This document shows, one piece after another, positions 11,610 through 44,543 of a stretch of 55,125 nt of DNA. The translations under genes and the position numbers were made by a program. Source of the DNA: a virus; the IMG/VR virus record IMGVR_UViG_3300037189_000415, positions 1 through 55,125 of that record, one strand, 5' to 3'. Under the pieces are notes generated by a model. That model saw nothing but the letters and a program-made list of their open reading frames with translations, made no database searches and was not told the DNA's origin. How positions within the stretch are numbered: the stretch's first letter is position 1; each line of letters opens with the position of its first letter.

Positions 11610-11664
11610 ATGCCGCCTTCTGATGGCTCATTAACCTTACAGTCTTACTTTGAAGTGTCGAAAC

Positions 11665-11693
11665 TTGACAGCCGAGCCGAAGTCGGCGAGTCT
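11665..11693 (+). promoter_or_regulatory. Promoter-like box upstream of second paralog (TTGACA-17-GAGTCT)
   Basis: TTGACA (11665-11670), a 17-base spacer and GAGTCT (11688-11693) repeat the arrangement at 10485-10513. The spacer contains a small hairpin (GCCGA/TCGGC), and GGGACTGTCCC follows. The match with the first copy is in the boxes and around GCGAGTCT. Confidence 0.45.
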
Positions 11694-11767
11694 GGGACTG
11701 TCCCGAAAGGGCAACCCGTAATGGCATAACAACCATTACTTTACATTAACTTTCATGGAGAATTGAA

Positions 11768-14969: not shown

Positions 14970-14970
14970 T

Positions 14971-16146
14971 ATGACTAGCGTAATGCCAACATCTGTGGTG
15001 AGGAACACCAAGTACAAAGACATGACGCCTCTGACTGATGCTCAGAAGGCGGTACAACACAAGCGAATCATCAAGGCTCGTACTGCCTTGGTGTTGGAGC
15101 ATCCGTTCATCGGTAGCATTGCATTGAACTTGCCATTCAACTTCAATGACAACATCCCTACTGCTCGTACCAATGGCAAGCGGATTGAATATCAACCCCG
15201 CTTTGTGGAATCATTGACCGATGAGGAGGTTAAGTTCCTCGTTGCCCATGAGTGCTTCCATCCCATGTTGGAACATAACTTCCGCCGTGGTGGTCGTGAC
15301 CCTCGCCGATGGAACAAGGCAGGTGACTATGTAATCAACCAACTGTTGACTGACGATAGCATCGGCAAGATGCCTAAGGATGGACTACTGAACCCTGCAT
15401 TGCACCAAGCAGGTAACGGTACGACTGATGGTATCTACAACTTGTTGCCCGAGGATGATGGCGGTGGTGACGGTGATGACCCGATGGATGACTGCGAGGA
15501 TGGTGACGGTTCACCTGCCGAGAAGGAGCAACAAGCGGCAGAATGGAAGGTCAAGGTAGCACAAGCGGCACAAGCGGCAAAGATGATGGGCAAGATGTCG
15601 GCAGGTCTTGAGCGTCTTGTTGCTGAGGTATTGCAACCCAAGGTAGATTGGCGTGATGTATGGTATCGCTTCTTGCAGAAGTGTAAGAACGACACTCGTT
15701 CCTTTGCTAGACCCAACCGTAGGTTCATTGCACAAGGACTGTATCTGCCCACTACTAGCGGTGAATCCCTTGGTGAGATTGTGTTTGCCATTGACTGCTC
15801 AGGTTCCATTACTCAGCAAGTCATTGACCAGTTTTCGGCAGAGATTCATGTAACCAAGGATGACTTCAACCCATCTGCCATTCACCTCATCTACTTTGAT
15901 AGCGAGGTCTCCCACTATGAACGGTTCGGTAGGGATGACACATTGCATGTCGAGCCACATGGCGGTGGTGGTACTGACTTTGCCCCTGTGTTTGAGTTCA
16001 TGGCAGAGCGTCAGATCGAACCTGTTGCAGTAGTGTTCCTGACTGACCTGTGTTGCAACTCATTCGGTAATCAGCCTGACTGCCCTGTGCTGTGGGTATC
16101 TACCGATGATGGTACTGCACCGTTCGGTGAAGTGGTGGTGATGTAA
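14971..16146 (+). CDS. VWA-domain zincin (DUF2201-like) protein (391 aa)
   Basis: The N-terminal domain has HECFH at residues 93-97, a zinc-binding HExxH motif, followed by EH and by WNKAGDYVINQLL, as in DUF2201-like VWA metallopeptidases. A long acidic linker (EDDGGGDGDDPMDDCEDG, residues 161-178) leads to a VWA domain with the MIDAS triad DCSGS (275-279), Thr-Asp at 335-336 and Asp in FLTDL (about 359). It is the partner of the MoxR-type ATPase. The start at 14971 follows the previous stop by one base; a longer in-frame extension lies inside the upstream gene and is not used. Confidence 0.85.
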   Translation: MTSVMPTSVVRNTKYKDMTPLTDAQKAVQHKRIIKARTALVLEHPFIGSIALNLPFNFNDNIPTARTNGKRIEYQPRFVESLTDEEVKFLVAHECFHPMLEHNFRRGGRDPRRWNKAGDYVINQLLTDDSIGKMPKDGLLNPALHQAGNGTTDGIYNLLPEDDGGGDGDDPMDDCEDGDGSPAEKEQQAAEWKVKVAQAAQAAKMMGKMSAGLERLVAEVLQPKVDWRDVWYRFLQKCKNDTRSFARPNRRFIAQGLYLPTTSGESLGEIVFAIDCSGSITQQVIDQFSAEIHVTKDDFNPSAIHLIYFDSEVSHYERFGRDDTLHVEPHGGGGTDFAPVFEFMAERQIEPVAVVFLTDLCCNSFGNQPDCPVLWVSTDDGTAPFGEVVVM

Positions 16147-26592: not shown

Positions 26593-26598
26593 GGGTGC

Positions 26599-26620
26599 GG
26601 CGGGGGAGCAATCCCCCGCC
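26599..26620 (+). terminator. GCAA-loop hairpin between regulator and primase-helicase genes
   Basis: A perfect 9-bp stem (GGCGGGGGA/TCCCCCGCC) closes a GCAA loop, with no T-run. It lies 16 bases before the primase-helicase ATG. It may stabilise mRNA or slow ribosomes rather than stop transcription. Confidence 0.5.
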
Positions 26621-26636
26621 TAAGATAGGGGTAGCA

Positions 26637-29531
26637 ATGAACACGCTTGAATTTTTGGAGCGGGTTCTTCCGTCTGAGGGGTTATATTGTTCGTTCACTG
26701 TAGTAGGGAAATACCCTAAGCAGTGTCACCACCAAACGATAGAAGAACTTGCTAATGAGGTATTGGCACAGAGCCAAGCAGGACACAACACGTATTTCGC
26801 AGTCTCGTCATTCCTGACAGACGAGAGCCGTGAACAGGTAAACGTCAGGGCGATCAAGACCTTCGCGCTCGACATCGACTGCGGTGAGGGTAAGCCGTAT
26901 CCATCGTGGAAGGAAGGACTGCTAGTCCTGTCCGACTATATTCGTGAGCTTGGTTTGCCGGGGCCGATGATTGTTCGGTCAGGCAACGGGCTACATGTTT
27001 ACTGGACATTGACCGCCGAGATGCCGCCCGAGGAGTGGCGTCCGATTGCGTTTGCGTTCAAAGCATCTGCTGTTGCCAAGTTCAAGGAACTGGCAGAGAA
27101 GCGCGGCATCATCTCGCCGACTCCGAGTAAACCCTATATCGACCCTGCTGTACCTGCTGACCATGCGCGGGTGCTACGTCCTGTGGGAACCACCAACACC
27201 AAAGGTGGCAACACAGTATCTTTGATATTCGATGCGCCCCCTATTGACCCACAACAGTTCGCATCGTTTTTCCGCATTGCCCCTAGCTCACCGGCTGAGC
27301 TACCCACACGACACACATCCAACAGTACATTGCTAGATAGTCTGGCAGTCAAACAAGAATGGCCTCCGTCAAACCCTGACCCTATCAAGAACAAATGCGC
27401 TCAGATTAAATGGGCGGTAGAGAACCAAGACAAGATGGACGAGCCATCTTGGTACAACGTCATGGGTGTGGCTGCGTTTTGCAAAGACCCTGAGGAAGTA
27501 GCTATCCAATGGAGCAATGAACATCGTACATTCAACGAAGCCGAGACTCGTAGGAAGATTGCTCAATGGCAAAACAAGACCAGTGGCCCGACCAAATGCG
27601 AAACATTCGAGGAGAACAATCCTGAGCGATGTAAGGGTTGTAAGTTCAAAGGCAAAATCAAAAGCCCGAACGGGTTAGGTGTTCAATACCAAGAGGTGCA
27701 GATAGCTCCCGATGCGCTTGATGCTGCTGCCTATGAGGTGGAGTTACCCAAACCTTTTAAGAGAACTGATCGAGGTATCAAAGTAACTCTCGATGATACC
27801 GATATTGATGTATGCCCGTTTGACATATACCCCGTGGGGTATGGCAAAGATGAAGCCCTTGGCTATGAGGTCGTCCGGTATCACTGGAACCGACAACATG
27901 TTGGTTGGCAACCGCTGACCCTACGTCAAGCTTTCCTCACCGATGGTAGCCGTGAGTTTGCAGGAGCCATTGCAGACCAAGGCATCGTCCTTTTCAACAA
28001 AAAACAAACGGAGTACTTTCAATATATGCTGCGCACCTACATGGATAAATTGCGGCAGCAGAGAGCCATGACGAACCTCTATTCCACAATGGGATGGAAG
28101 CACGACTACACCGAGTTCGTTATGGGTGACACCATCCTGCGCTGCAACAAGAACGGAACAATCACAGAGGAACAAATTCTTCTGTCATCAACATCACAAC
28201 GTCTGGGCCATGAGTTGTACGGCACAGCGGGAAGTCTTGAGGAGTGGCGGGAGTTCACCCGCATCATGCCCAAGGTCAACCTGATGGGTCAGATGTTTGC
28301 AATCGGCGTGAGTCTATCGGCTCCGTTATACGCCTTCACTGGACTTAAATCCACAACCGTGTCGCTCTATGGGCCGACAGGCTGCGGCAAAACATTGGCT
28401 CAGTTGTGGGGTCAGTCTGTGTGGGGTGTGCCTGAGAAGCTGCACTTCGCTGCCAAGTACACACAGAACGCTGTGTTCGCACGATTTGGTTTGTATTGCA
28501 ACATGCCACTGACCATTGACGAAACCACGATGATGGATGTCAAAGATGTTGGTGACTTCCTGTACTGGATTTCACAGGGTCGAGACAAGGCACGACTTAA
28601 CCGCAATGCAGAGGAACGTGAGGCTCGTGAGTGGGCGGCTCCTGCCATCCTGTCGAACAACACATCCATGGGTTCTAAACTGGTAGCGTCCGGCATGGAG
28701 ACCACGGCACAGATGGTTCGCCTGTTGGAGATTTCGCTGCAAGTCCACCCGATATTTAAGTCAGGTAGTACCGCAGGTCGAGACATCTACAACTTCCTGT
28801 CCACCAACTACGGTCACGCAGGTCGTGAGTTCGTGAAGTATCTTATGCAACTTGGCCCTGAGGGTATGAAGGCTATTGTGGATGAGGCGTTCAAATCTTT
28901 CCCCAAGAAGTATGACCATCACTTTACTGGCGAGGAACGCTTTTGGGAGCAAGCTATTGTGTTAGCTGATTTGACTGTACGCCTTGCCTATGAGAACAAC
29001 ATCATCGCTTTCCCGCCTGAGGTGATGACCAACTGGGTACTGGGTCAGATTGGTGCAATGCGTAAGACCGTCATCGACTATCAGACTGATAGCTTCGACA
29101 TGCTGACCGAGTATCTGAACGAACATGCCAACACCGCGCTGACTGTATGGCACACAGGTAACACTAAACCTGCCGTTGATATGCAACGCCTACCGCGTGG
29201 TGAAGTCCGTGCGAGATTCGACTGCCACCGTAGGGACATGACCTCAAAGTTTGACCACGGTACGGTGATGGTTGACCGGACGCACTTCCGTAAATGGCTT
29301 GCTCTGAAGGGTTCGGACTACCGTGGCTTCATGCGTGAGATGGCTTCTGCCAACTTAGTGGTAACACCCAAGTCCAACAAGGCAAGCCTTGGTAAGGATA
29401 GCCCTATCAAGTTGCCACAGTCCTATGTGATTGCGCTGAATCTAAACCATCCCCGCCTCAGAGGAATCCTAGAGGACGAGGATGCGGCTGTCGATGACGC
29501 CATGCTTGGTCAACTGAAGGTCGTTCAATAA
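26637..29531 (+). CDS. Primase-helicase (AEP-like plus DUF927-like), 964 aa
   Basis: The N-terminal domain has FALDIDCG (about residues 83-90) and RSGNGLHVYWTL (about 118-129), then VLRPVGTTNTK, as in archaeo-eukaryotic primase (AEP) domains that use two Asp and a His. A middle region with CETFEENNPERCKGCKF may bind zinc. The C-terminal part is a DUF927-like helicase/ATPase with Walker A YGPTGCGKT (about 579-587), TIDETTMMD and AILSNNTSM. It probably primes and unwinds DNA for the PolA. The ATG at 26637 follows AGGGG. Its stop overlaps the opposite-strand gene by seven bases. Confidence 0.88.
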   Translation: MNTLEFLERVLPSEGLYCSFTVVGKYPKQCHHQTIEELANEVLAQSQAGHNTYFAVSSFLTDESREQVNVRAIKTFALDIDCGEGKPYPSWKEGLLVLSDYIRELGLPGPMIVRSGNGLHVYWTLTAEMPPEEWRPIAFAFKASAVAKFKELAEKRGIISPTPSKPYIDPAVPADHARVLRPVGTTNTKGGNTVSLIFDAPPIDPQQFASFFRIAPSSPAELPTRHTSNSTLLDSLAVKQEWPPSNPDPIKNKCAQIKWAVENQDKMDEPSWYNVMGVAAFCKDPEEVAIQWSNEHRTFNEAETRRKIAQWQNKTSGPTKCETFEENNPERCKGCKFKGKIKSPNGLGVQYQEVQIAPDALDAAAYEVELPKPFKRTDRGIKVTLDDTDIDVCPFDIYPVGYGKDEALGYEVVRYHWNRQHVGWQPLTLRQAFLTDGSREFAGAIADQGIVLFNKKQTEYFQYMLRTYMDKLRQQRAMTNLYSTMGWKHDYTEFVMGDTILRCNKNGTITEEQILLSSTSQRLGHELYGTAGSLEEWREFTRIMPKVNLMGQMFAIGVSLSAPLYAFTGLKSTTVSLYGPTGCGKTLAQLWGQSVWGVPEKLHFAAKYTQNAVFARFGLYCNMPLTIDETTMMDVKDVGDFLYWISQGRDKARLNRNAEEREAREWAAPAILSNNTSMGSKLVASGMETTAQMVRLLEISLQVHPIFKSGSTAGRDIYNFLSTNYGHAGREFVKYLMQLGPEGMKAIVDEAFKSFPKKYDHHFTGEERFWEQAIVLADLTVRLAYENNIIAFPPEVMTNWVLGQIGAMRKTVIDYQTDSFDMLTEYLNEHANTALTVWHTGNTKPAVDMQRLPRGEVRARFDCHRRDMTSKFDHGTVMVDRTHFRKWLALKGSDYRGFMREMASANLVVTPKSNKASLGKDSPIKLPQSYVIALNLNHPRLRGILEDEDAAVDDAMLGQLKVVQ

Positions 29532-32500
29532 GCCAGTATCTCCGAGGCAGTCCTGAGATCAGTACGGGATGCCTTCGGAGCAGTACGCATGAACCGTTTC
29601 TCCGCAGGACGGAGAGCTTCTTTGTACGCCTTGGCTGCGTTCTCTTGGAAGTTTGAGATGAACAGCGATGTGCCGTAAGTCTCACGGTTCCAATCATTCA
29701 CGGCTGCTTGGATAGCTTGGACTCGTTCCATATCCCCTGACATACGCGCCTTAATCCAAGCGTGTTGGTATCCCGCAGAGATTTCTCTTTGGTAATCCGT
29801 GGCACGTTTGGCTACACGGATGAACTCGTATTGCTGTGATGCAGCCGTTGGGTAGAAGCCTAGTGCGCGGGTAATCATCGTACCTGCATGGAGGTCTTTC
29901 GAGATGACGTAACCACGACGGTCGATGATTGCACCTGCATCGTCATACGCCAACATGTCTCCAAGTGCGCGACCCATAGTCACCGGGGATTCGCGCAACA
30001 CATCCGCCAATGACAAGCGATCAGTAAACGCAGCCTTAACAGAGTTCGGGATAGTTGCTGCTACGCCTGCGAGCATTGACCAAGCTGGGCCTGCTACTTC
30101 AGCAATTTCTCTACCCACATCAGCGCCAGCCAAGAGGATACCAGTACCGGGAATCATGTTGCCAGTTGATGTGCGTGAGGCAAGGTCAGCAATAGACAGA
30201 TAGTTAGCCGCACCACGCAGAATAAATGGCGCAGACCCCGGAACTATTTCCTCCATTACCTTGGCAAGTTCGTAGCGAACGCTGCCCTTTTTCCACCCGA
30301 GAATCTTTTGTCCGATGGTATCAATGATGTCCTCTGCGTCCTCAGCAAATGGCAGACCCATCAAGCCGGTCATCATCCACATGGACAGCAGCATTACTCC
30401 CTTGCCCCCGGGGCTTAGTCGGTTCAACAACTGAATAGTTGTTGTGGGGAAAACCTTATACATATAGATGAACGACTGAATACCCGAACGCCATGCAGAT
30501 GGACGGTTAAGTACCGAGTATTCACCGAGCGAGTAGCGCAGAGTTTCCACCGCAAAGTTACGGGCTTCCGCAGCAGCTTGAGTTTCAGACAAGCCAGCAG
30601 CGATGGCGCGGTCATACGCCAAGCGATAAGACGCAAGACCTAAGCCTCTGCGTACTGCTTGTTCTGTGGAGTTAAACGTCCACATCATCGTGTCGAGGGC
30701 TTTCTGCTTTGCTCCCGATGTTGCACGACCACGAGCCGTTGCCGTCAGTGCATTGGACTGCGCAGGAATCATCACACCCTCACGGATTTCACGAGCGAGG
30801 AACTTAGCCTCATGCTCCTTGATTCCATACTGGGCTTGCAGCTTAGGGTCAGCCGCGATCTTGTCGTAGAACTCAGCAGTGTCGAAGCCAGTCTCCTCTG
30901 TGCCAATGGCCTTTAGAGATTTGGTTACGGCTTTGCGCAGACCGACTTGGTTCAGTGCAACTGAGAACGCCGCATACGACTTACCAAATCCGAAGCCACC
31001 ACCGAAGGCAGTCTTGGAGTTGTAAGTTGCCAGATATGGGATGCCGTTGGTCAGAGCGCCGATGTAGTTCAGCGCACCAGTGGCGACCGATAGACCGAGT
31101 TGGAACACACTGGTATATGCGCGGACAGATGACACAACTTCACCTGAGCCAAAGTCCGACTCATCCACATGCTTGTTGCCATCAATGAACGCCAGTAGTT
31201 GCGATGCCTCGTTGTAGTACATGTTCGACTTCTGATAGCCACCGGCTTCATTGGTCTTGTTGTACATGTAGGCGTACCGCTCGTAGCGTTTCTTGGCGTA
31301 GTTACGTTCCTCAAGGGTGGCTGTAGGATTCTTCTCCATGTCCTCCCACATCTTCTTGTACTTGTTGAGCGTACCCTTGTCGCCGTTCCAGAGTTCCTGA
31401 GACGAGCGCAGGTTACGGTTCATGATCTCAGCCAAACGTGGACGCATAGTCACCTTGGCGATAGTAGATGCACGCGCCTCAATATGTTGCATGATGGCTT
31501 GCACACCGTCGCTGCTGGCCCCCGGTGTAAACGCACGTTGCAATCGCTGACGAGCGCGGGCGTTCTGCGTAGTCAACGCAGTAATCACAGTCTCCATTTT
31601 CGTTGGGTTAAGCGTGATCCCGAATTGACGCAAGCCACGTACAAACTCGTTGAGGTTTAATTCAGGCGGTGCTGCAATGGCGTCAAGGGCCGCGCCGGGA
31701 ACAGCTTGCAGGTAAACATCTTGCAGTGTGTATGTGCCTTCAGCTTCGTTGTAGGCTTCTGCTTTGTACGCCTTACCTTGGAACAGTCCTTCGTTAATCT
31801 CCCGAGCAAAGGCAATCGCTTCGTCCTTGTTCTCGAACTGCGAGTAGACCAGTTGCTCTTTGTAGTCTTGCTTCAGGCGAACCACACGACCCTTGGAATC
31901 CACTGCGTTGACGCGAACCTGATGTGCGCCCTGACGGAGGATGGGGGTATACCCTGTAGCCAGTGTGTTCTTAGTGTAGATGTCAGCATCACCGTTGGAA
32001 ATCTCAGAGATGATGATGTCCTTCAGGCGGTTCTGAATTGTGAACTTAGCTTGAGCGTCATCCTCAGGGATAACCAAACGCTGCTTAAACTCTTTGGCAA
32101 ACGCAACCATGTCGTCTGCCATGTTCTTATCGTCGAAGAAATTAGACACGGCTACATAGTCGCGGTCTTGCCCCAAAATGATAGCCTTGTTTACCGCAGC
32201 AATAAAGTCGTTGGCTTTCTCAACTGAGTCAGGGTTGAGGATGGGGTCACCATTCTCATTGAAGGTTTGCGCAGCGGTATAGAACTCTTTGTAGCGGCGA
32301 TAGATTTTCTCAAACGCCTTACGCTCAGCAGCAGTCAGAGCAGGTTTGCCATCTTCACCGGGCTTGGTAATGTCCGCGATCTCACGGAACGCCAAGTCTT
32401 TATCTTGGACATACGCCAGATACCTAGCCTTGAGCAACTGAATCTCCACATCACGCATAGCTTCACGAGCGCGGAGGTAACCCTGCCAGACCTTGCCATC

Positions 32501-35500
32501 TTCCGTTAGGTCTTTGATGCCGGGGACATTGATCTTCTCTTTGACCGTCTTACCATCTTTGGCTACATCAATCTCAAACGAGTAGCCGTTCTTAGCCTCA
32601 TCAAACGTCACCAGACCCATCTTGTATAGGCGGTCGATCTCAGGCTGGTTTGGAACCAGTTGCCCTTCGTCATTGACTGTGAACAGGCGGACGTTGCCTA
32701 GCTTGCGCTTGTCTCCGAGGGTGGTGACTTTGTAACGCAGACCGTTGTACAAGATGCTGTTGAGTTGGTCGAGTTCATCAGTAGTGATACCGCCTACCTC
32801 GCCAGCCGAGAATCTACCCGCACCCAGCTTAACCGCACGGTTCAGGATGACGCCCAGCTTTTCCTTCATGGACACCTTGATGTTCATGGATAGGCTGAGA
32901 CCTTCGTTTAGAACTTCATTGACCGCAGACAAGCCAGCGTTCTCACGAGCGCGGAAGTTGGTCAGGCTAAAGAACTTGGTTATGAACTTGTCAGCACCGA
33001 ACGAGAAGTTACCAGCCTTATCGGTGAACTGCTGAATTGCTTTGTCGAAGTCCATTGTCCAGCCACCGACTCGATCTGTCATGAGTCCAGCAGCTAGGTT
33101 GTCAGCACGCAGGTTACCTGCCTGTGCAAAGCGACCAGAGCCATCGTAGTCCTGACCCATGGAGTAGGCTGAGAATCTTTGTGCAACTTCTTTGGCATCG
33201 AAGAACCCTGCGGTAGCGCCGGAGCGGGTGTAACGACGCGCTTGGTTGACGAAGTAACGTGCTGCCTCATCACCGAACTTAATGCCCAGCTTGTTGAGTG
33301 CGCCCTTGATTGCGTTCCAGACACGAGCCAAGACATTGGACTCGATGGTGGCAGCGAAGTCAGCAAGGTATTCTTCCGTGGCTTCAGCACGAGACATTCC
33401 GCGCACTGCCATGGCAGCATCCACATCGCCTTGCATACTTGGGCTACGCTTGTAGATTTCCTCCATCAAGGAGTTGAATTGCTTCTCGCCGATGAGAGCG
33501 CGGAGACCGTTGTGACCAATGGCTTCGTGTGCCAGCACAAAGTTCAACTGCTGCTCAGTCGCTACGCGATCACTGAACACGATGACGGTATCGCCGTTGA
33601 ACGAGTACGCCACGGCAGATACATTGTCGAAGTCACCTTGGGTACGGGCAGCAGCCGCACGGGCATACAGTTCAGGGTTACGTGCCTTGAGGTCTGCTTG
33701 GTTCTTGTAGATAAAAGTCTTTGGCTTGATAGTCAGTTTGGCTAGGAAGTTAGCCACCAACATCTTGATCTTACCAACCGGCACTGGGTTGTTGATAGGC
33801 GTACCATCGTCGCGCTCGAAGCGACCAGTATCGTCACGGTTGCCAAAAGAGTTCCAATCTTCCAAGTTGAATGGTGCTTTGTATTCACCCTTGGCTTCGC
33901 CTTCTTCTGAGATACGCACATCAGGATCGACATCGCCACGATCTTCAGCTTCAAAACCACGGAGTTCGTTGTCGGATACATCACGGACGAAGACACGCAG
34001 TTTGCCGTTGACCACACGGGTCTTGGGTTTGCTGCCATCAAAGTACGCAGAGATCGGGTTACCACTAGCAGTCTCGAAATCTTCCAGATCAGCAGCTTGA
34101 ACCTCAGCGTAGAGGTTTGTTAGTTTTGCGATTGCATCCTGCTGTTGCTTGGCGGTGTACGCCATACGGTTGGAGTTCAACCGCTGAATCTCCTCGTACA
34201 ACTTAGTGGCAGGATTACGTTTGGTCTTGTCAGTAGCGCCGCCGTCCTCGGAAGTTTGCTGTCCGTTCTTGGTCAGCTTCTTCTGTGTTTCTTTTGGGAA
34301 GTTATCTAGGCGAAGCTGACCACCATCAAGATAAAGCTGTGCGTCATCGACAGCAATACCAGTCAGGCGGGTCTTAATCTGTGGCAGCAGTTGGCGGTCT
34401 TGTGCGTATTGGAACCATGGCTTATCTGCACCCTTGTTCTCACCACGGGTATACACAGCCTCTATGGATTGCTGTGTGTTGACTTCGTTCAGCACAATCT
34501 GGTCAATCAGACTACGCTCTTTGTTGTCCCAGCGTTTGTTCTTGAGGTACTCGCGGGCGCGAGTAACAGCATCAATAGTATTGGTATCCTCAGGCGAGAA
34601 CAGCGCGTACTGCACCACTGTCTGCATAGCTTCAGCTTTACCTTTGAGGGTATTGGCTTCCTCAATATTATTGATTTCCTCATTGACTACATCCAGTGGC
34701 GTGAGTGTGCCTTCGAGCAAACCTTTTTCTTTCTGCTCGTCGTTGTAGGACTCAACCAATAGATCAGCCTCAGCCATCGTAGCCCTATTACGAGCTACGA
34801 GGTTAGTCCATACAGACTGGTTTTGCTTAGAGAGTTTGTCGAACGTCGGGGCGTTCTCTGGCTTCTTATCCTCCCATTGCTCCTCAGCAGTGGCAGGCTC
34901 TGGTTCGACCTTGGTCTCAGCCTTTACCTCGGTCTTTCCCTTTTTTAGGGAAGCAGCCTTTGGCGCAGGAACAAACCCGCGCTTCTTCTCAGCCTCGACT
35001 ACTTCTTTCCGAACAGTTTTTGGCTGATCTTCTTGCTTCTTGGTTTTGAGGGCTTGACCTTTGCTGGCAGATTTGCGTTGTCCGGTGTTTCCTTCTCCCA
35101 CTCCTTTGCCAGCTTCGGTTCGTTCTTGTACATCCACCGGCGCTGTGCCTCGCTCTTGAACGGCATTTTGTACCTCTCCTTTATATACAGTACGGATTGT
35201 TGTATCCCCAGCTTGATCTAACAAGAAAGCCCGATGATGCCCATCGTGAATGTAAAAGGAACCATCGGGTAATGCCGATACGACTATTGGGTTTTGTGCA
35301 GTAAAGTTACGCAGACGTTGTTGGGCCTGCGGGTCTGCCTTAAACGCATCAACCATCTCGCGCATGGTCATATATTTATCAATATTTTTCATCCCAACGA
35401 CATTAGTCAGTATGTCAAATACTTGGGATTCAGTAACACCCTGAGTACCAATTGCTCCATTAGGGCGTTTTATGTTTGCAATAAGAAAATCAAACGATCC

Positions 35501-38092
35501 TGCTGCCGATTTTACTTCTTGCTTTGCTCCCTTCTTCAGATTAGACACGGCCTTTGCCACAGTGACAGCACTTACGGGTTTACCAGTAGGCTTTGCCTGA
35601 GTGACACCCTTTGCCACAGTGGGCTTAGGTAGTGGTTGTTTCTTGCCTGCACTCTTGAGCGCCGCTACTGTGGGTTCACCCTTCTGGGTAAACAGTGCCA
35701 TTTGTCCTGCACGGCGGAGATCAGCCGGAGTAACAGGTGTCACAGGAGCCGCAGGTATGGGAAGTTGTGTACCTACACCACGGCGCAACCCCTCAGCACG
35801 CGAAGGACGAGGTAGTTCACCACGCTTGAACAGCGATAGTTGCTGTGGTGTGCGCTCACGGGGCGCAGTCATTGGTAGCGGAGGTGTCTGCGGTGTGTTT
35901 TCCTGTGGGAAAGCCAAGTCAAGCTGACGCTGATTCTGCGCTGCTAGATTCAAGCGGTCGAGTTCAGCTTCACGCTGTGCAGCGGCAGCGGCCTCAGCCT
36001 GTTGAAACGCAGCAGCACGAGCCTGCTGATCTTGGATTTGCTGGAGTTGCCCAGCCATCTGATTGTTGAACGGAGCCTGCGGTGCTGGCGGCGCAAACTG
36101 CAAAGCACCTTGTCGTGGATCATTTATTGGTAGCGACAAAGGAGCCACATTGGGCTGTGACATGCCCTGCCGCATGTAGTTAATTGCTTCAGGGTTTTCA
36201 TTCAACAGATCAATGTTGAGGTCTTTCATGGAGCCATAATTGACCTGTCCCCCCATACGGGACGCTAACTCTTGCGCGGATATGTTGCCGCCAAAGACAT
36301 CAAGTACGCCCTGAGAACCCTGAGTCATACTAGGCGGCACATTGCCAGTCTGCCTGAGCATTTGGTCAGGATAAGCCACGCCTTCGGGCGTGACCATCAT
36401 CATCGGATTTCCGGCTGGACTTACAGGCGAAGTCGGGCCACCCAGCATAGGTGGGGGTGGTGGGGGTAGACCGGGAAACTCGCGGTTAAACGTGCCGCCT
36501 TGCGCAGGTGGAGGGGGTGGAGGTGGTGTTGGGCTGACAGGTGCAAGCGAAGTACCACCGGCAGGTGGAGATGGGTCTTTACCGCTGTCCAAAAGGTTTA
36601 CTGCTATCTTGTTGTCACGAAGATTGCTCAGCCCGCCGATTGGGCCACCAACACCAAAGCCTGCGGCAAAGGCGTTCAGTATGCGGCGACGACCTTCAGG
36701 CGAATCAATGTTTACATCCTTGTTGGCGTAGATGCCAAGGGATTCTTGGAACGCTTCAGTCGCACCTTCGGCTGTACCACCTACGATGGCTCCAGTACCG
36801 AACCTACGACCTACCTCAAGAGACTTACCGCCCAGAGTCTTAATATCGCCAAGGCGTCCGCGTGCCATCCACTGCGGTGTACCGCTCAATCCAAAGACAC
36901 GGGAAGCTGCCAAGAACTCAGCAGACGATTCAGCCAAACCGTAGGGAATACCAAGAGCTAGTGCCATCAGGCGGTCGCCTTGACCATCGCCGCTCTCTAA
37001 AGTTTCCCCGTAAATATCAGCGATACCCGTGGCAATGTTCTGCCCAGTGGTAGCAATCGTCGCACCGCCAATCTGACCGGCACGTTTGTAATACTCAGAC
37101 AGCGTATTCTGGGCTGCGTTACGCAAAGTAGCAGCTTCTTGCTGGATAGCAAGCCGTTCCGCTTGGCTCTTAGCCTGTGCAGCAAGCACAGCGTCGTAAG
37201 GAATTAAGGCACGAGACGCCGATGGGTTCTTGATTGAGGCAGCAACTGTAATCCCAGCAGCTTCGTTTAGGAGTTTTGTCTCCGCCGCGTCCAAGGCTTC
37301 ACCGCGCAGATATTTCTGCCCAGCTACCGCCAAAGCGCGTTTAAATGTTTCTTTACCAGTCAGCGCCATAATCGCGCCGCCCGTAGCGGTTACGGGGTTC
37401 GGGCCACCCCCGGCTGCACCGCCAGCAACAAAGCCTAATGCACCAGTAACTATAGACTCAACAAGGTTCGGGCCTTGCTGCGCAAGGTTTGCAGTAAACC
37501 AGTCTAGTAGGCCACGATCTCCGCTAACAACTCCGTGCCCAAAGTCTATTTTCTCGCCGACGTTTGTGAATTCCCGCTGATACACCTGACTACGGGACAA
37601 GTCCTTGATCTGTTGTTCGACAATCTTTTTTCCGGCGTCCTCAAACCCAAGCCATTGCAGACCGTAACCGCCAAGCAACTGTAAGCCATCAACACCAATA
37701 CCCCAGTTGGCTTTTTGTTTTTGCCACTCGCTAGGGTCAACAATGCTTTTTGCGTGTTGCAGGTAGCCAGACACGGAAATAGGACGCCAGTCACCTTCGG
37801 GTAGCGGGGCACGGACATCAGGGCGAAGAATTTTAAGCGACTCAACAACAGCGGTATCGTCGTCGGCGTCAAACGTCGCACCATTTACAAACAACCTGTT
37901 AGTAGACGGGCTGTAAGCTACTGACCCTGATGGGATAAACGGTTGAGACGCAGGGACTTGGACGGTAGGCGTATTGGCTTTAAGCGCCTGCGAGTACTGT
38001 CCAAGACTGATACCCCCAAGATTACTCAAGTCTGCATTAGGCTGCGGTGTCAGCCCATAAGGAAGTCCTACCGTCAGTGCTTGGTCAGCCAT
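29525..38092 (-). CDS. Giant polyvalent internal virion protein (2855 aa)
   Basis: The 2855-residue protein is one of the largest possible for such a phage. The N-terminal region has glycine-rich hydrophobic segments (about 210-240), then Pro-rich linkers (about 510-560). A ParB-like nuclease-type domain has IHDGHHRAFLLDQAGD near residue 950. A metallopeptidase-like patch LAHEAIGHNGLR (His1522, Glu1523, His1527) has HExxGH spacing. The C-terminal region near 2480-2640 (RRGLGLASYRLAYDRAIAAG and on) resembles LPD38-type polyvalent domains. It is the last gene of the internal-protein set, so it is probably packed in the virion and ejected. A promoter of its own is not visible. Confidence 0.78.
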   Translation of the reverse strand: MADQALTVGLPYGLTPQPNADLSNLGGISLGQYSQALKANTPTVQVPASQPFIPSGSVAYSPSTNRLFVNGATFDADDDTAVVESLKILRPDVRAPLPEGDWRPISVSGYLQHAKSIVDPSEWQKQKANWGIGVDGLQLLGGYGLQWLGFEDAGKKIVEQQIKDLSRSQVYQREFTNVGEKIDFGHGVVSGDRGLLDWFTANLAQQGPNLVESIVTGALGFVAGGAAGGGPNPVTATGGAIMALTGKETFKRALAVAGQKYLRGEALDAAETKLLNEAAGITVAASIKNPSASRALIPYDAVLAAQAKSQAERLAIQQEAATLRNAAQNTLSEYYKRAGQIGGATIATTGQNIATGIADIYGETLESGDGQGDRLMALALGIPYGLAESSAEFLAASRVFGLSGTPQWMARGRLGDIKTLGGKSLEVGRRFGTGAIVGGTAEGATEAFQESLGIYANKDVNIDSPEGRRRILNAFAAGFGVGGPIGGLSNLRDNKIAVNLLDSGKDPSPPAGGTSLAPVSPTPPPPPPPAQGGTFNREFPGLPPPPPPMLGGPTSPVSPAGNPMMMVTPEGVAYPDQMLRQTGNVPPSMTQGSQGVLDVFGGNISAQELASRMGGQVNYGSMKDLNIDLLNENPEAINYMRQGMSQPNVAPLSLPINDPRQGALQFAPPAPQAPFNNQMAGQLQQIQDQQARAAAFQQAEAAAAAQREAELDRLNLAAQNQRQLDLAFPQENTPQTPPLPMTAPRERTPQQLSLFKRGELPRPSRAEGLRRGVGTQLPIPAAPVTPVTPADLRRAGQMALFTQKGEPTVAALKSAGKKQPLPKPTVAKGVTQAKPTGKPVSAVTVAKAVSNLKKGAKQEVKSAAGSFDFLIANIKRPNGAIGTQGVTESQVFDILTNVVGMKNIDKYMTMREMVDAFKADPQAQQRLRNFTAQNPIVVSALPDGSFYIHDGHHRAFLLDQAGDTTIRTVYKGEVQNAVQERGTAPVDVQERTEAGKGVGEGNTGQRKSASKGQALKTKKQEDQPKTVRKEVVEAEKKRGFVPAPKAASLKKGKTEVKAETKVEPEPATAEEQWEDKKPENAPTFDKLSKQNQSVWTNLVARNRATMAEADLLVESYNDEQKEKGLLEGTLTPLDVVNEEINNIEEANTLKGKAEAMQTVVQYALFSPEDTNTIDAVTRAREYLKNKRWDNKERSLIDQIVLNEVNTQQSIEAVYTRGENKGADKPWFQYAQDRQLLPQIKTRLTGIAVDDAQLYLDGGQLRLDNFPKETQKKLTKNGQQTSEDGGATDKTKRNPATKLYEEIQRLNSNRMAYTAKQQQDAIAKLTNLYAEVQAADLEDFETASGNPISAYFDGSKPKTRVVNGKLRVFVRDVSDNELRGFEAEDRGDVDPDVRISEEGEAKGEYKAPFNLEDWNSFGNRDDTGRFERDDGTPINNPVPVGKIKMLVANFLAKLTIKPKTFIYKNQADLKARNPELYARAAAARTQGDFDNVSAVAYSFNGDTVIVFSDRVATEQQLNFVLAHEAIGHNGLRALIGEKQFNSLMEEIYKRSPSMQGDVDAAMAVRGMSRAEATEEYLADFAATIESNVLARVWNAIKGALNKLGIKFGDEAARYFVNQARRYTRSGATAGFFDAKEVAQRFSAYSMGQDYDGSGRFAQAGNLRADNLAAGLMTDRVGGWTMDFDKAIQQFTDKAGNFSFGADKFITKFFSLTNFRARENAGLSAVNEVLNEGLSLSMNIKVSMKEKLGVILNRAVKLGAGRFSAGEVGGITTDELDQLNSILYNGLRYKVTTLGDKRKLGNVRLFTVNDEGQLVPNQPEIDRLYKMGLVTFDEAKNGYSFEIDVAKDGKTVKEKINVPGIKDLTEDGKVWQGYLRAREAMRDVEIQLLKARYLAYVQDKDLAFREIADITKPGEDGKPALTAAERKAFEKIYRRYKEFYTAAQTFNENGDPILNPDSVEKANDFIAAVNKAIILGQDRDYVAVSNFFDDKNMADDMVAFAKEFKQRLVIPEDDAQAKFTIQNRLKDIIISEISNGDADIYTKNTLATGYTPILRQGAHQVRVNAVDSKGRVVRLKQDYKEQLVYSQFENKDEAIAFAREINEGLFQGKAYKAEAYNEAEGTYTLQDVYLQAVPGAALDAIAAPPELNLNEFVRGLRQFGITLNPTKMETVITALTTQNARARQRLQRAFTPGASSDGVQAIMQHIEARASTIAKVTMRPRLAEIMNRNLRSSQELWNGDKGTLNKYKKMWEDMEKNPTATLEERNYAKKRYERYAYMYNKTNEAGGYQKSNMYYNEASQLLAFIDGNKHVDESDFGSGEVVSSVRAYTSVFQLGLSVATGALNYIGALTNGIPYLATYNSKTAFGGGFGFGKSYAAFSVALNQVGLRKAVTKSLKAIGTEETGFDTAEFYDKIAADPKLQAQYGIKEHEAKFLAREIREGVMIPAQSNALTATARGRATSGAKQKALDTMMWTFNSTEQAVRRGLGLASYRLAYDRAIAAGLSETQAAAEARNFAVETLRYSLGEYSVLNRPSAWRSGIQSFIYMYKVFPTTTIQLLNRLSPGGKGVMLLSMWMMTGLMGLPFAEDAEDIIDTIGQKILGWKKGSVRYELAKVMEEIVPGSAPFILRGAANYLSIADLASRTSTGNMIPGTGILLAGADVGREIAEVAGPAWSMLAGVAATIPNSVKAAFTDRLSLADVLRESPVTMGRALGDMLAYDDAGAIIDRRGYVISKDLHAGTMITRALGFYPTAASQQYEFIRVAKRATDYQREISAGYQHAWIKARMSGDMERVQAIQAAVNDWNRETYGTSLFISNFQENAAKAYKEALRPAEKRFMRTAPKASRTDLRTASEILAY

Positions 38093-38104: not shown

Positions 38105-41095
38105 TTATTTTCTATTGATGTTCATCAGCCCACGGTTCATGCCGGTAGGGAGAACTGTAACAGCCTCTGCTGTGAATTTTCCATCCGTACCCAACTTGGC
38201 AGGGTTCAAATCTATTTGTACTATGTAATTCCCATCTCTGCTAGTCGCTATTACCGTCTCACCGCCATTTGGGTTAATTACTTTCTGGACATTCTCAAAG
38301 CCCTGCTGCTCCATATACTTCTTGGCAAGTTCAGTTTGGGATTTAACACCTTCTAATTGCAAGGAGTTAATACCCTTTACCAATTCAACCTTGACGAGTT
38401 TTGCGGTTTCGAGATTTGTCTCCATCACTTTACTGCTCAACGCAGCTTCTGCTGCCAGCTTCTGTTGGTTGTATTGCTCATTGATAGACCGCATAGCTAC
38501 GTCAGCCATCTTGGATTTATCGTACACAGCAACAGCCTGTAGTTGCCCATCGACCGGCAGGTACAAGTTGTAACGCCCATCGCTTCGTGGCTGGATGCGA
38601 ACTTCCTGCCCTGAGTACCAAGACCAGATGCGCTCTAACCGTTGTGGGTTGTTGCCGTACTGGAAGTCTGACAACGCTTGGTATGAAATAGCCATACCCA
38701 AGTTGTTGTCGATACCTTCTAGACCCTGCTGGATTGTTTGGTCTGTCGTCATAACGTCCGACTCATACTTGAGTCGGATTTTATTTATGTTCTGATCTAA
38801 CGTACGAATCTGATCTAGCTTAGTCTGCATCTCCTTAATCAGACCATTGCTGCGGGCGACTTCAGCCTCCATTGCCAGTTGCTTACGCTGGGCAGCGAAG
38901 TTATTCAGTTCACCAGTGTAGTAGTTGGTGATGCTTTGGCGTGTCTGTTGGTACTGGGCTACAGCGTTTTGACGCTGGTTCAAGTACTTGTTGGTCGTGA
39001 AGTTATGTTCTTCTGGCTTCATCGACAACGCAATACGAATACGTTTCAGATGCTCCTCAGGTTCCTCACTGATAGCAGGTTGTTGTACACCAGCAGTCGG
39101 TTGCTCAACAGCCGCAGGTTGTTTCTGGTCTTGCTGTACTTGCTGTACTTGCGTAACGTCCACAACGCGATTGACAGTACGCCCTGTGTTATCCACCTGT
39201 ACTTTTTTGGTGGTAGTAGCGTATAGCTGTTTGCTTTGAGCATCGTTAAGGTGCAGACCCATCTTGTCTTTGGTAATGTCCGGGAACATATCCGCAAGTG
39301 GGCCAGTAAACTGAACTTGGTTTTCTGCTGCAAGTTTTGCCAGATACTCGTTCTGACCAGTTGTAGGATTCTGTTTAGTACCCGGCCCCACACCAATGAT
39401 GTATGGAGTACCGCCCTTCTCTTTGATGAGCGCAATCTGTTTGGCAACAAAGTCTTGTTGCTGTGGGTTATTTGGTAAGCCTGTGCCAACGTAGACCATT
39501 GCACCCTTGATGTCGTTCTTAGCAACATAGGCTTGCAAGCGTTCGTAAACAGCCTTAGGACTTTCCCCAGTCTTATACGAACCTTCGAGTTTGTTTGCCT
39601 TGGCAAAACCTTCAGCTACGCTGTCACCGATAACGATAGTCTTTGTAGGAGCAGCCGCTTGTACCTGTGCTTGAGCTACTGGCTGTCCACCGCCCAGACG
39701 CGTTAATGCTTCGTTGTACAACGATACATAGGCACGGTTGTAATCGGCGTTCATGATGTTGCCATCATGCGCGTTCAGTGGGCGTTTCTGTTGCAGCACT
39801 GCGTCTGCGTTACCTTGGTAGCCAGCGCCCCACAGGTTCTTAGGATTACCAATCAACTCGTTGTATTTCAATACGAGCAGTCCGCCAGTAATCTTACCGT
39901 TGACGGTATTGAACTCCATCGAACGCGCAGCAGATACCGTTGCCTCAGGTATGTTGTACTTCTTAATAATGTCTGGATTGGTAAACCACTTCTTGATATT
40001 TTTAAAAGTATCAGGCATGACTTGCATTGGGCCTGATGCTCCCTTCCCACTCTCTGCTGAAGTAGCTCCGTAGTTTGTTTCCAGTCCGTACACTGCCAAT
40101 GCCGCAGCAGGGTCTACCTGAAGCTGCCCAGCAAGTGCAATGATTTGTTTGGTTTGCGGACGTTGCAATGCTGCGTCCATGGTATTGGTGAGGTCAACAA
40201 TACGCTTATCAGTTACCGAAGTTGAGTTCGCAATAAACTTGGAGTCGATCTTTGATGTCTTACCATCGCGCAGATTGACCGGTGGTACTTCAAGATTTTG
40301 CGCTCTACTAGCTTCATCCTTTTTTAACTTTTCTTGGTATTGCTCTACCGTGTAGTTCCCTTGCTCCCTTGCTCGAATCATGTCGTAGTAAGGTGTAGCT
40401 GAACCAGTATTGATGCTTGGAATTTCTACGCGGGTAACATCATTATCATAAATTCCAAGGGCGCGACCCAAACGAGGTATGCCGATCTGATTGGCAGTCC
40501 AAGTCCCGATACCAGAAATAGCATTAAGGGGGCCACCAACAAGCACATCGGCGGCAGCCGCAGGGAACCTGAGCAAATCTAACCGATCTCTAGTTGCCTG
40601 CTGCCCTCTATTTACAGTGTCTACAATGCGCTGCTTCTCGGCTGGCGGTAATGATAGAAATTGAGAGTAGGACACTGGCGGCGGATTAGCATCAGCACTT
40701 TGCACAACCACTGGTTTATTTTTATTTTCGGTGGTAGTTACTACCGGTTGCTCTGGTACATCAAGCTTTGCAGCAGGAACCGCTACTGGTACAGGAGCAG
40801 ATTCTGGCTTAGGGACGATGTACGTATCAAGACGGTTACCCGGCATCGGTTTGTTCGTAACATCAAACACCGACGGAGGCATGGTGAAGCCAATAGGAGC
40901 CAAGCCAGCAAGTTGCTGGTTAGGGTCAATCGTTTGCGAACGCTGTTGCAACTCCCGCCGCTGGCGAGCTTGCCTATAGATGTCGTCAGTTTCCTCTACC
41001 GCGCCCAACATCCGTGGGATGCGAGTCATGGTTTGAAACTGCGCATCTTCATTCGCAGGAACCGCCCTAAAAAACGCATCAAGTCCGCCAGCCAT
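38105..41095 (-). CDS. Internal virion protein with lytic transglycosylase and SGNH hydrolase domains (996 aa)
   Basis: The N-terminal third is Pro/Val-rich and disordered. A lytic transglycosylase domain has LAVYGLETNYG with Glu339 as the likely acid, then GASGPMQVMPDTFKN. A second domain from about 485 begins IVIGDSVAEG (Ser492), contains VYVGTGLPNN (about 540-550), and has DKMGLH (Asp610, His615), a typical SGNH hydrolase triad. The C-terminal half is a long helical region (LNQRQNAVAQYQQTRQSITN). The transglycosylase opens peptidoglycan at infection, as in T7 gp16. The SGNH domain may remove acyl groups from cell-wall or surface glycans. It has a terminal overlap-free start at 41095. Confidence 0.82.
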   Translation of the reverse strand: MAGGLDAFFRAVPANEDAQFQTMTRIPRMLGAVEETDDIYRQARQRRELQQRSQTIDPNQQLAGLAPIGFTMPPSVFDVTNKPMPGNRLDTYIVPKPESAPVPVAVPAAKLDVPEQPVVTTTENKNKPVVVQSADANPPPVSYSQFLSLPPAEKQRIVDTVNRGQQATRDRLDLLRFPAAAADVLVGGPLNAISGIGTWTANQIGIPRLGRALGIYDNDVTRVEIPSINTGSATPYYDMIRAREQGNYTVEQYQEKLKKDEASRAQNLEVPPVNLRDGKTSKIDSKFIANSTSVTDKRIVDLTNTMDAALQRPQTKQIIALAGQLQVDPAAALAVYGLETNYGATSAESGKGASGPMQVMPDTFKNIKKWFTNPDIIKKYNIPEATVSAARSMEFNTVNGKITGGLLVLKYNELIGNPKNLWGAGYQGNADAVLQQKRPLNAHDGNIMNADYNRAYVSLYNEALTRLGGGQPVAQAQVQAAAPTKTIVIGDSVAEGFAKANKLEGSYKTGESPKAVYERLQAYVAKNDIKGAMVYVGTGLPNNPQQQDFVAKQIALIKEKGGTPYIIGVGPGTKQNPTTGQNEYLAKLAAENQVQFTGPLADMFPDITKDKMGLHLNDAQSKQLYATTTKKVQVDNTGRTVNRVVDVTQVQQVQQDQKQPAAVEQPTAGVQQPAISEEPEEHLKRIRIALSMKPEEHNFTTNKYLNQRQNAVAQYQQTRQSITNYYTGELNNFAAQRKQLAMEAEVARSNGLIKEMQTKLDQIRTLDQNINKIRLKYESDVMTTDQTIQQGLEGIDNNLGMAISYQALSDFQYGNNPQRLERIWSWYSGQEVRIQPRSDGRYNLYLPVDGQLQAVAVYDKSKMADVAMRSINEQYNQQKLAAEAALSSKVMETNLETAKLVKVELVKGINSLQLEGVKSQTELAKKYMEQQGFENVQKVINPNGGETVIATSRDGNYIVQIDLNPAKLGTDGKFTAEAVTVLPTGMNRGLMNINRK

Positions 41096-41106: not shown

Positions 41107-42690
41107 TTAGCCGTTGTATCGGTACATATCACGCGTATCTTTGGACAACAGCGGATATGTCATGTAGGTAGCCATCTTAGTAGCGCCCTGCCCAGCCAGT
41201 GCACGAGATGTATCAAGATCAGAATACATGCTTGCCACTTCTTTCAAGCCTGCCTGCATACCACGAGGCGCGGTTGGGTACATGCCTTGCGCACGAGACA
41301 ATGCTGTGTTGCGCATATCCAAGCCGCTTGCGTAACCTCTGTCATACGCGCTACCGACGTTTGCAGTAAGACCCAGAGACGCACGACGACGCTCTGAAGC
41401 ACCGTAACCGGGAGTACGAAGACCTGCAAAACGGTCGTCGCGGAAACCTTCAGCCAAAGATTTTGCGCCAGACACTTGTGCGGCATTGGCAGTTTGTTGC
41501 GCCCAGTAGTCAGGGTTGATAGCTTTGGCCTGTGCAACGAAATCGTTGTACTCTTTGAGCTTGGCTTGATACGCTGCTTGGTCTTGACCTTCAAGACGCT
41601 TGAGTTCTGCTTGGTATTCGTCAATGCGTTTTTGCTGCTCTTTACCGGCTTGTTGCGCGTATAGTGAGCCAACGATATTTGGAGCCGCCAGCAAAGTCAT
41701 ATCAGCCATCTTAACTGGGTCACTTATACGATTTCCAAGAGTTTGGAAGTACCCCTGCTTTTCAACTGGTAGCCCAGTCTTAGGATCAATACCACCGCCG
41801 GATGCAGATGCAGTGTTTGTGCCGCCGCCTGCTGGACTGGTTTGTGCACCAGTATCTACACCTCTGTTAGACGCGTTCGAATACGAATATGGATTTGTAC
41901 CTGCGCCGCTATACACGGGAGCAGTATTACCAGTATTGGTAATTGTCTGACCAGCGTCGTTAACAAACGTATGAGAATAAGTACTCGATGGCGCATATGG
42001 GCCTATACCAATACGAGGGTCATACAGATTAGTTGCCCCCAATGCCCTAGCCCCGCCTAACGTAGTATTCGCAGTCACGTTGGTCATGCTGTTTGCAAGA
42101 GCACCCGGATCCATAGCACCGCTAGATAACTTACTAGCAACGTCTGCCGAAATATTACCGCCGTATGCAATGTTTTGTGACTGAACAACCGCACCATTCA
42201 TAGGATCAACGAAAGCGTTCTTTGAGGCATCCCAAACACCAGTTCCGCTACCGCTATTGGTAATGACAGCAGAGTTAGGGCCAGCAGTAAATCCGGTTGC
42301 ATTTTGCACTGGGACGCCACTACCTGTGAATCCCATACCTTGTTGCCAGCCGCCGATACCACCGCCGATACCGCCCAGCAATGCACCCTGTTTCCAGTCG
42401 CCACCCATAGCAGCAGTAGTTACGCCGCCCAGTACTGCACCGACGCCAGCAGATGCTAAACCACCCCAAGCTGCACTCGCACCTAGAGCAGTTGCAATCT
42501 GCGGAGCTACGATGGGGATAGCAATCGCTACAGCTATACCGACAAGTGTCTTTAGAAATCCACCACCACCGCCGCCCATTTCGGATTCGCCACGAATAGC
42601 TGCGGCAATCGGATTGAGTTTTCCGGGGAACTTATCGTGTACCCCATACGAGACAAACTGGATGTTGTCAAAAGTTAGTTGATTAGACAT
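41107..42690 (-). CDS. Internal virion protein (527 aa)
   Basis: It has a hydrophobic, glycine/alanine-rich N-terminal region (LKTLVGIAVAIAIPIVAPQI, residues ~46-65, then GGVTTAAMGG and GALLGGIGGGIGG) typical of membrane-interacting ejection proteins. The middle is Asn/Thr/Gly-rich. The C-terminal third is helical (YQAELKRLEGQDQAAYQAKL). The length and place beside the transglycosylase protein suggest a gp14/gp15-like role in forming a channel through the host envelope. It overlaps the next gene start by eight bases. Confidence 0.65.
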   Translation of the reverse strand: MSNQLTFDNIQFVSYGVHDKFPGKLNPIAAAIRGESEMGGGGGGFLKTLVGIAVAIAIPIVAPQIATALGASAAWGGLASAGVGAVLGGVTTAAMGGDWKQGALLGGIGGGIGGWQQGMGFTGSGVPVQNATGFTAGPNSAVITNSGSGTGVWDASKNAFVDPMNGAVVQSQNIAYGGNISADVASKLSSGAMDPGALANSMTNVTANTTLGGARALGATNLYDPRIGIGPYAPSSTYSHTFVNDAGQTITNTGNTAPVYSGAGTNPYSYSNASNRGVDTGAQTSPAGGGTNTASASGGGIDPKTGLPVEKQGYFQTLGNRISDPVKMADMTLLAAPNIVGSLYAQQAGKEQQKRIDEYQAELKRLEGQDQAAYQAKLKEYNDFVAQAKAINPDYWAQQTANAAQVSGAKSLAEGFRDDRFAGLRTPGYGASERRRASLGLTANVGSAYDRGYASGLDMRNTALSRAQGMYPTAPRGMQAGLKEVASMYSDLDTSRALAGQGATKMATYMTYPLLSKDTRDMYRYNG

Positions 42691-43192
42691 TTGGAGCCTC
42701 CGTTAATTCCAATCTCATGTGTGAGTAAACCTGCTTGAACCCATAACGAGTAAGCATCCGCTGCATTGCCGGGCCTACCCACCCATCTATGGCTCGTATA
42801 CCGTTCATATACGCCCAACCACAAAACTGCTGCCAAAACTTCCGATGGAACATAGCTAATTCTGTACCGCCAATAGCCAGTACATTCATTGCTGGAAGTC
42901 TTGGGTACTGAACTACTTCTACTGCAAGTGCGAGACGCACATCACGTTCAGGATTTGTGGCAGTTCTGTCGTTTGTCAGCACAAAAATATACGCTTTACC
43001 ATTTAGTGCAAGGGCTTTAATATCATCTACCTCTAGTTCACCGTGCATTGTTTCTTTGACGCAGCGGTTCAACAGAGGGCGCACCCAAGGCCAGTATGCT
43101 TCTACGTGTGCAGGCGTAGCGAGCAAAAGCGGTTGATACTCCTCATCAAGAGGAGCCGGTTCCATCATTGCTGGCCCTGTATATAGCGTCAT
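42683..43192 (-). CDS. GNAT-fold-like internal virion protein (169 aa)
   Basis: It has the look of an acetyltransferase-like protein: HVEAYWPWVRPLLNRCVKET near the start, then LALAVEVVQYPRLPAMNVLA, then FCGWAYMNGIRAIDGWVGPA and RYGFKQVYSHMRLEL at the end. GNAT-like proteins of this type are found near internal virion protein genes in T7-like phages (gp13-like). I do not see a clear acetyl-CoA binding loop. It overlaps its neighbours by a few bases on both sides. Confidence 0.6.
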   Translation of the reverse strand: MTLYTGPAMMEPAPLDEEYQPLLLATPAHVEAYWPWVRPLLNRCVKETMHGELEVDDIKALALNGKAYIFVLTNDRTATNPERDVRLALAVEVVQYPRLPAMNVLAIGGTELAMFHRKFWQQFCGWAYMNGIRAIDGWVGPAMQRMLTRYGFKQVYSHMRLELTEAPNV

Positions 43193-44204: not shown

Positions 44205-44543
44205 CTATGATTTTAGTTGAGTAATCAGAGCGTTTAGCACATCTTTGATGTATGCTACATCCCCGATCAGTGTTTGTACATCCACAATAAGTTTTGCGTA
44301 GTCTTCCGCTGAAGCTACATTTACACCGCTTATTGTAAACCCCGCCCCCGTGGCTGTCACCTGTCTTAGGTTCAAATCACCCATGGGCTGTATCCCAATC
44401 TGCCCAGCAACAAGGGCTTGATACCCAGTATCCCCGCGCTGCCCGGTCAGGATTTCTACGTTTTGCTTTACGTTGTTTAGGAATTGAAACTGCCACTCAG
44501 GTATTCCTACCTGTGGCACGGCGGGTAGTGCTGCGTAACTCAT
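44205..44543 (-). CDS. Small structural protein (112 aa)
   Basis: It reads MSYAALPAVPQVGIPEWQFQ, then FLNNVKQNVEILTGQRGDTG, and ends in a helical segment (AEDYAKLIVDVQTLIGDVAY and on). The start overlaps the 794-aa tail protein's stop by one base (TAATG). Patterns such as PEWQFxFLNxVKxNVEILTG are found in small phage tail proteins located next to the tail-tube protein. It is probably a tail or assembly protein. Confidence 0.6.
   Translation of the reverse strand: MSYAALPAVPQVGIPEWQFQFLNNVKQNVEILTGQRGDTGYQALVAGQIGIQPMGDLNLRQVTATGAGFTISGVNVASAEDYAKLIVDVQTLIGDVAYIKDVLNALITQLKS

Follow-up and report, generated by a model that had tools for sequence, protein, structure and literature searches.

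The window analysed here, a virus record of 55,125 bases, carries on its minus strand a gene for a 2855-residue protein, and sequence comparison supports this protein as a well conserved new member of the known polyvalent proteins. It is fairly likely that this polyvalent protein belongs to a lineage of Bcep22-like podoviruses, that it is carried in the virion and enters the cell together with the DNA, and that a constant frame encloses an exchanged middle, from which an active gluzincin frees the module carried there. Three parts make up the constant frame: an N-terminal region rich in Ala and Gly, a zincin-like domain bearing the motifs HExxGH and EEYL(A/S)D, and a large PLxRFG-type C-terminal part; the exchanged modules of the middle are ParB-like, MORN repeats and other unnamed ones. 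The gene and its parts are located as follows.

29525-38092, minus strand: giant gene for a polyvalent-type putative virion protein of 2855 aa (ORF with ATG start; relatives in viral contigs)
36623-38092, minus strand: residues 1-490, Ala/Gly-rich N-terminal region (composition and hydropathy; position of the N-terminal, or injection, domain of N4 vRNAP)
33773-36622, minus strand: residues 491-1440, Pro-rich variable middle or 'cargo bay' (replacement blocks of close pairs concentrate here)
33173-33772, minus strand: residues 1441-1640, predicted zincin-like metallopeptidase domain (36-sequence alignment, AlphaFold2 model, fold searches)
29528-33172, minus strand: residues 1641-2855, the large C-terminal part (residues 2321-2816 match the PLxRFG 'tail-700' family)

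The gene described in an earlier note on this DNA is real, with a minus-strand frame open across all 2855 codons, and its two motifs lie where that note had placed them: IHDGHHRAFLLD begins at about residue 948, with DGHHR at about residues 950-954, and LAHEAIGHNGLR supplies H1522, E1523 and H1527 within HEAIGH (1522-1527). At three close loci, full-length relatives are 74-75% identical to the giant protein in amino acid sequence and one partial relative is 92% identical. When a four-sequence profile of the zinc domain was used as query, 64 viral loci were found to share that domain; the relatives of the giant protein, more than 60, are uncultivated phage contigs. No cellular or prophage relative was confirmed when bacterial and archaeal genomes were scanned with conserved peptides, a result that applies to those patterns only. 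Among the four closest sequences, dN/dS is 0.03-0.14 in the zinc and C-terminal domains; judged from its sequence, the giant gene is under purifying selection. One further locus may be misannotated: at the place expected for the giant gene in Pseudomonas phage Itty13 (25492-36750), GenBank has three large genes on the opposite strand, the translations of which look like wrong-strand ORFs.

The classification as a polyvalent protein was borne out chiefly by the C-terminal part, which is homologous to giant proteins of PLxRFG type encoded by podoviruses, F116-like ones among them. The NCBIfam model NF032893 ('PLxRFG domain-containing protein') matched residues 2321-2816 (E 1.1e-35, 123.2 bits, cut-off 100), and phrog_11358 also matches the large C-terminal part (E 2.2e-30). 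The earlier description of this end as LPD38-like was not upheld, since none of the Pfam LPD models gave a match when the protein was searched in pieces, with E allowed up to 10, and NF032893 was matched instead, above its cut-off. The named phages with a match to the C-terminal part include F116-like phages and Shewanella phage Y11, and identity is 24-26%. The Y11 protein (WIF21962.1, F116-like type) is homologous in its C-terminal part (E 1.8e-31, NF032893), and its zincin, with the motif HELGGH and hence HExxxH spacing, is homologous to the zinc domain of the window protein (E 1e-6). It additionally contains ddrB-ParB, LPD1, LPD5 and ART-PolyVal domains and a second HExxH in one chain. Because this homologue shares both the C-terminal part and the zincin and has polyvalent domains, the giant protein was placed among the polyvalent proteins. 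The middle of the window protein is shorter than that of Y11 and different, and the Pfam polyvalent models (LPD, ddrB-ParB, ART-PolyVal, MPTase-PolyVal) found no match in the window protein, whereas four such domains occur in Y11. In other respects there is agreement with polyvalent proteins as outlined in the relevant part of Iyer et al. 2017 (PMC5512222): they are very large, multidomain and mosaic, encoded late in the phage genome, with HEXXXH zincin-like and ParB-like domains. Several unrelated domains are likewise joined in one very long chain here, namely the zincin-like domain, the PLxRFG C-terminal part and the exchangeable middle module.

The N-terminal part, previously called hydrophobic, is better described as Ala/Gly-rich. 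Its GRAVY value is -0.11 and no 19-residue window reaches 1.5, the highest being 1.46 at residues 210-228. By hydropathy, then, the N-terminal part has no segment of transmembrane grade, a result that counts against the explanation favoured here.

Within the zincin-like domain, two short elements account for the putative active site.

33512-33529, minus strand: HEAIGH, residues 1522-1527, an HExxGH motif with two putative His ligands and a putative Glu base (47 of 47 distinct relatives)
33359-33376, minus strand: EEYLAD, residues 1573-1578, with E1574 proposed as the third ligand of zinc (no variation in EEY..D among the 36 aligned sequences; spacing from the second His)

All 47 distinct relatives have HExxGH followed by EEY[LI][AS][DE], with a gap of 46-52 residues from the second His. 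In the alignment of 36 sequences, H1522, E1523, G1526 and H1527 (alignment H82, E83, G86 and H87) are invariant, the three residues singled out in the earlier note among them, as are E1570, E1573, E1574, Y1575 and D1578 (alignment E130, E133, E134, Y135 and D138). An AlphaFold2 model of residues 1441-1626 built from the 36 sequences has a pLDDT of 82 and replaced a four-sequence model with a pLDDT of 64. In it, helix 73-88 carries HEAIGH and helix 128-138 carries E133/E134, and the predicted order, helix-strand-helix-strand-strand-helix, would fit the expectation for a zincin core. In a fold search of BFVD, ten matches were obtained at E < 0.001 (1e-7 to 1e-3), mainly to phage giant proteins, and several of these are named 'large polyvalent protein associated domain'. 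The top two rows from VIA-align are zincins, at Z scores of 4.6-4.7 that lie below the level that counts alone. With the zincin-domain model as query, Foldseek found nothing significant in the PDB and no entry of M49, and PDB sequence searches with the giant protein returned unrelated matches only. Residues 1441-1640 are a predicted zincin-like domain with a recognised HEXXXH variant, and a predicted peptidase.

The earlier note had held that HExxGH, not being the usual HExxH, needed checking before a catalytic role was assumed. The motif is strictly conserved and has precedents, and it is not anomalous. A set of polyvalent peptidases with HEXXXH is described in the part of Iyer et al. 2017 (PMC5512222) that treats them, and in dipeptidyl peptidase III (M49), an active enzyme, HEXXGH and a second motif of the EECKAD type bind zinc (PMC5805324). 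Because of this invariance and these two precedents, the spacing is no argument against catalysis, and its interpretation as a sign of inactivity was rejected; as far as sequence allows, the doubt about the zinc site is removed. The likeness to M49 consists of HEXXGH followed by EExxA(D/E) and is limited to these two short motifs. M49 is a cellular exopeptidase of another overall fold, and no M49 chain was found in profile or fold searches with the zincin domain.

A parallel in layout is the virion RNA polymerase of phage N4 (vRNAP, gp50), which comprises a membrane-type N-terminal domain, the RNAP, an HExxH domain and a helical C2 domain (PMC12633501). The order of parts is the same in both proteins: an N-terminal ejection domain, a variable middle (the RNAP in N4), a zinc-motif domain and a large helical C-terminal domain. 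A further likeness is the ExxAD found 48 residues downstream in the N4 zinc-motif domain. The two differ in that N4 has HExxH and an RNA polymerase as its middle. Homology to the N4 RNAP or its C-terminal domain was sought with hmmsearch at full sensitivity and single-sequence hhalign, and nothing significant was found. Since no homology was detected, the giant protein may work like N4 vRNAP but is not classed as one.

The N4 protein also provides a case for a different role of the zincin. It is possible, if rather doubtful, that the fold is structural and not catalytic, and that it folds together with the C-terminal part for packing or for holding the cargo inactive, as in N4. N4 vRNAP is packed uncut despite its HExxH domain, so self-cleavage is no general rule, and the N4 C-terminal domain autoinhibits its polymerase. 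However, the presumed ligands and the catalytic Glu of the window protein are invariant in 47 distinct relatives, and a structural role is weakened because a purely structural site would not need E1523. Alternatively, the peptidase might itself be the effector, cutting host proteins after entry, with the middle modules as independent helpers. This is one option put forward for polyvalent peptidases in the pertinent part of PMC5512222, but we regard it as unlikely: the zincin is the most constant domain across phages of presumably different hosts while the middle varies, a pattern that a self-directed role fits better, though not decisively.

That the giant protein enters the particle is suggested by its gene neighbourhood, of which the main members are these.

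38105-41095, minus strand: 996-aa gene upstream of the giant gene, with a weak SLT transglycosylase match (Pfam SLT E 0.003, 17.5 bits, cut-off 21.3)
41107-42690, minus strand: 527-aa protein, counterpart by position of BcepIL02 gp69, a virion structural protein (gene order)
42683-43192, minus strand: 169-aa protein in the place of BcepIL02 gp65, an acyltransferase (gene order)
44543-46927, minus strand: 794-aa protein of internal virion or head-closure type (phrog_511 E 1.2e-111; tblastn to BcepIL02, DC1 and JC1)
26595-29531, plus strand: convergent primase/helicase gene (phrog_8841; conserved position)

An ORF of about 259 codons crosses the join 55125/1 without a stop, and the record therefore probably represents a complete circular map; no terminal repeat was found in the window. 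Read across the window ends, the minus strand encodes in order terminase, portal, capsid, tail fibres, the 794-aa protein, small proteins, the 169-, 527- and 996-aa proteins and the giant protein. The Bcep22-like (Lessievirus-type) order is thus present: terminase, portal, capsid, tail fibres, internal virion protein, acyltransferase place, virion protein place and giant protein. The 794-aa protein anchors the synteny, and the counterparts by place in BcepIL02 are gp63 (internal virion protein), gp65, gp69 and gp70 (DarB-like, 4,667 aa). In almost every locus whose sequence extends far enough, the primase/helicase gene lies beside the giant gene. The 996-aa protein is likely a cell-wall enzyme that would be co-ejected. 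A separate stretch of it (GDSVAEG...KDKMGLHLND) resembles GDSL/SGNH hydrolases, for which Pfam Lipase_GDSL_2 gave an E of 0.11 only.

Like the giant protein, BcepIL02 gp70 and JC1 gp69 are encoded last in the structural operon, behind the same set of virion genes, and have a zinc motif near the C-terminal third; they differ in size (about 4,500-4,670 aa) and in having HExxH rather than HExxGH. No sequence similarity between the giant protein and Bcep22-like DarB-like proteins was found with HMMER, hhalign and the profiles used. JC1 gp69, which is DarB-like, was detected in purified virions with 51 unique peptides (PMC9144972). From the gene order and this syntenic JC1 virion protein we infer that the giant protein would be packed in the particle and ejected with the DNA. 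Alternatively, the giant protein might be a structural component of the inner tail, or one resembling a tape measure, that remains in the particle and never reaches the cytoplasm; its Ala/Gly-rich N-terminal part and its place at the end of the structural operon would agree with this. That is quite improbable in view of the PLxRFG and DarB-like similarity and of a middle with domains such as ParB-like and MORN; the short-tailed relatives, moreover, are not known to have a tape measure.

The ejected polyvalent protein proposed here would differ among phages mainly in its middle, in which two segments of the window protein were delimited.

35165-35527, minus strand: residues 856-976, ParB-like module (MORN repeats instead in two relatives; dS)
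36158-36253, minus strand: residues 614-645, a 32-residue segment present with the ParB-like allele and absent with the MORN allele (alignment of four relatives)

The ParB-like reading of the first segment is plausible, but it falls under the Pfam cut-off and the segment is not constant, since close relatives have MORN repeats there. Pfam ParBc_2 gave an E of 0.0086 (16.6 bits, cut-off 23.6), and the best tblastn matches among plasmids were ParB proteins, at weak E values of 0.6-0.7. Among the viral contigs searched, the module was found in one other contig only, and the ParB label may plausibly serve as a lead but not as membership.

Slot 856-976 is occupied by the ParB-like module in the window and L002 and by MORN repeats in L003 and L004 (Pfam E 1.3e-10 and 1.4e-8, above cut-off). 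The backbone groups these sequences in the opposite way, the window with L003 and L002 with L004. On either side of the slot, DNA identity between the window and L003 is 91-95% (residues 681-800) and 93-99% (961-1080), and that between L002 and L004 is 89-100% over both stretches; inside the slot, both pairs drop to about 40-50%. Conversely, the window and L002 are 85-93% identical in the slot and 61-82% elsewhere in the middle, with a dS of 0.64 in the slot against 1.3-2.1 elsewhere. These identities and dS values indicate recombinational exchange, later than the split of the backbones. The dN/dS of 0.09 in the slot indicates that the module is under constraint. Segment 614-645 sits about 200 residues upstream of the ParB-like module, and in the four sequences the intervening stretch follows the backbone.

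Similar exchanges were seen more widely. Close pairs were defined by at least 80% identity across the 400 residues from the zinc motif, and replacement blocks of at least 30 residues were found in 31 of the 59 such pairs, which are partly non-independent and represent roughly a dozen groups. The starting point of most blocks lies between about residue 430 and a position 180 residues ahead of the zinc motif; a few begin at the extreme N-terminus or at other sites in the N-terminal third, and in none of the 59 pairs does a block fall anywhere between the zinc motif and the C-terminus. Pro-rich drift accounts for some blocks and others are true replacements; for example, 204 residues of L015, including a helix-turn-helix-like stretch, correspond to 82 in L060, and the sequences flanking them on either side are 97% identical. 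In Pfam scans of the middle of the relatives, MORN was above cut-off and little else was named; the helix-turn-helix-like reading, and a GNAT-like one in L034, were made by eye or are sub-threshold. The latter concerns residues of about 730-900 (GKGRGTRAYAEIGERLAAEG...SPAALRVWEKL), which are absent from the close relative L033 and had no Pfam match at E 1. Every sequence comes from uncultivated contigs, but both alleles are represented by two contigs each, from different metagenomes, and both are present on either backbone; many further pairs also show exchange, so that a metagenomic assembly artefact is hardly credible as the source of the swap. Since polyvalent-protein mosaicism has already been reported for Helicobacter phages, the mosaic theme itself is known; the new detail is a fixed frame with one bay. 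MORN repeats as the slot alternative do not appear in the relevant part of PMC5512222.

The following course of events is proposed. By analogy with N4 vRNAP, the C-terminal 1,400 aa of which are required for packaging, the C-terminal part would anchor the protein inside the capsid, and its exit through the tail would be led by the N-terminal part. The 527- and 996-aa neighbours may help to form the conduit and to open the cell wall or envelope. The zincin would act as an active gluzincin, with zinc bound by H1522, H1527 and E1574 and with E1523 as the base, and would cut its own chain, in the particle or after entry. The module thus freed may act early on nucleic acid, of the host or the phage. 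More tentatively, and with less probability than the specific case, the arrangement could be a general injection chassis, in which a fixed leader, a conserved HExxGH peptidase that cuts its own chain and a packaging tail would enclose a bay, in the position of the N4 RNA polymerase, where phages of this lineage exchange different early effectors by recombination.

Several other features of the window were observed. A gene for a MoxR-like AAA ATPase (13086-14072, plus strand) is followed by a 443-aa ORF (14815-16146) in which an HECFH zinc motif and a DxSGS (VWA/MIDAS-like) stretch were recognised, all by eye; the phrog_1314 label 'HNH endonuclease' on this ORF looks doubtful. Three tail-fibre-type genes on the minus strand (49283-50557, 50872-51873 and 54146-54676) encode N-terminal domains of about 100 residues that resemble one another; the arrangement looks like a single adaptor fitted with three different tips. 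Between divergent gene blocks, about 865 bases (10903-11767) are without an ORF of 60 aa and possibly hold promoters or an origin. No Rfam RNA family match and no tRNA was found in the whole window.

The description of polyvalent proteins in 2017 was based on sequence, and tests have been made of few of them. In this lineage, near-isogenic pairs occur naturally in which a single module of a putatively injected protein is different, and therefore both the function of the module and that of the HExxGH peptidase can be asked cleanly. The comparison of close relatives points to the bay as the place to search for unnamed early effectors; if the chassis reading is true, the bay would be a source of new early phage effectors.
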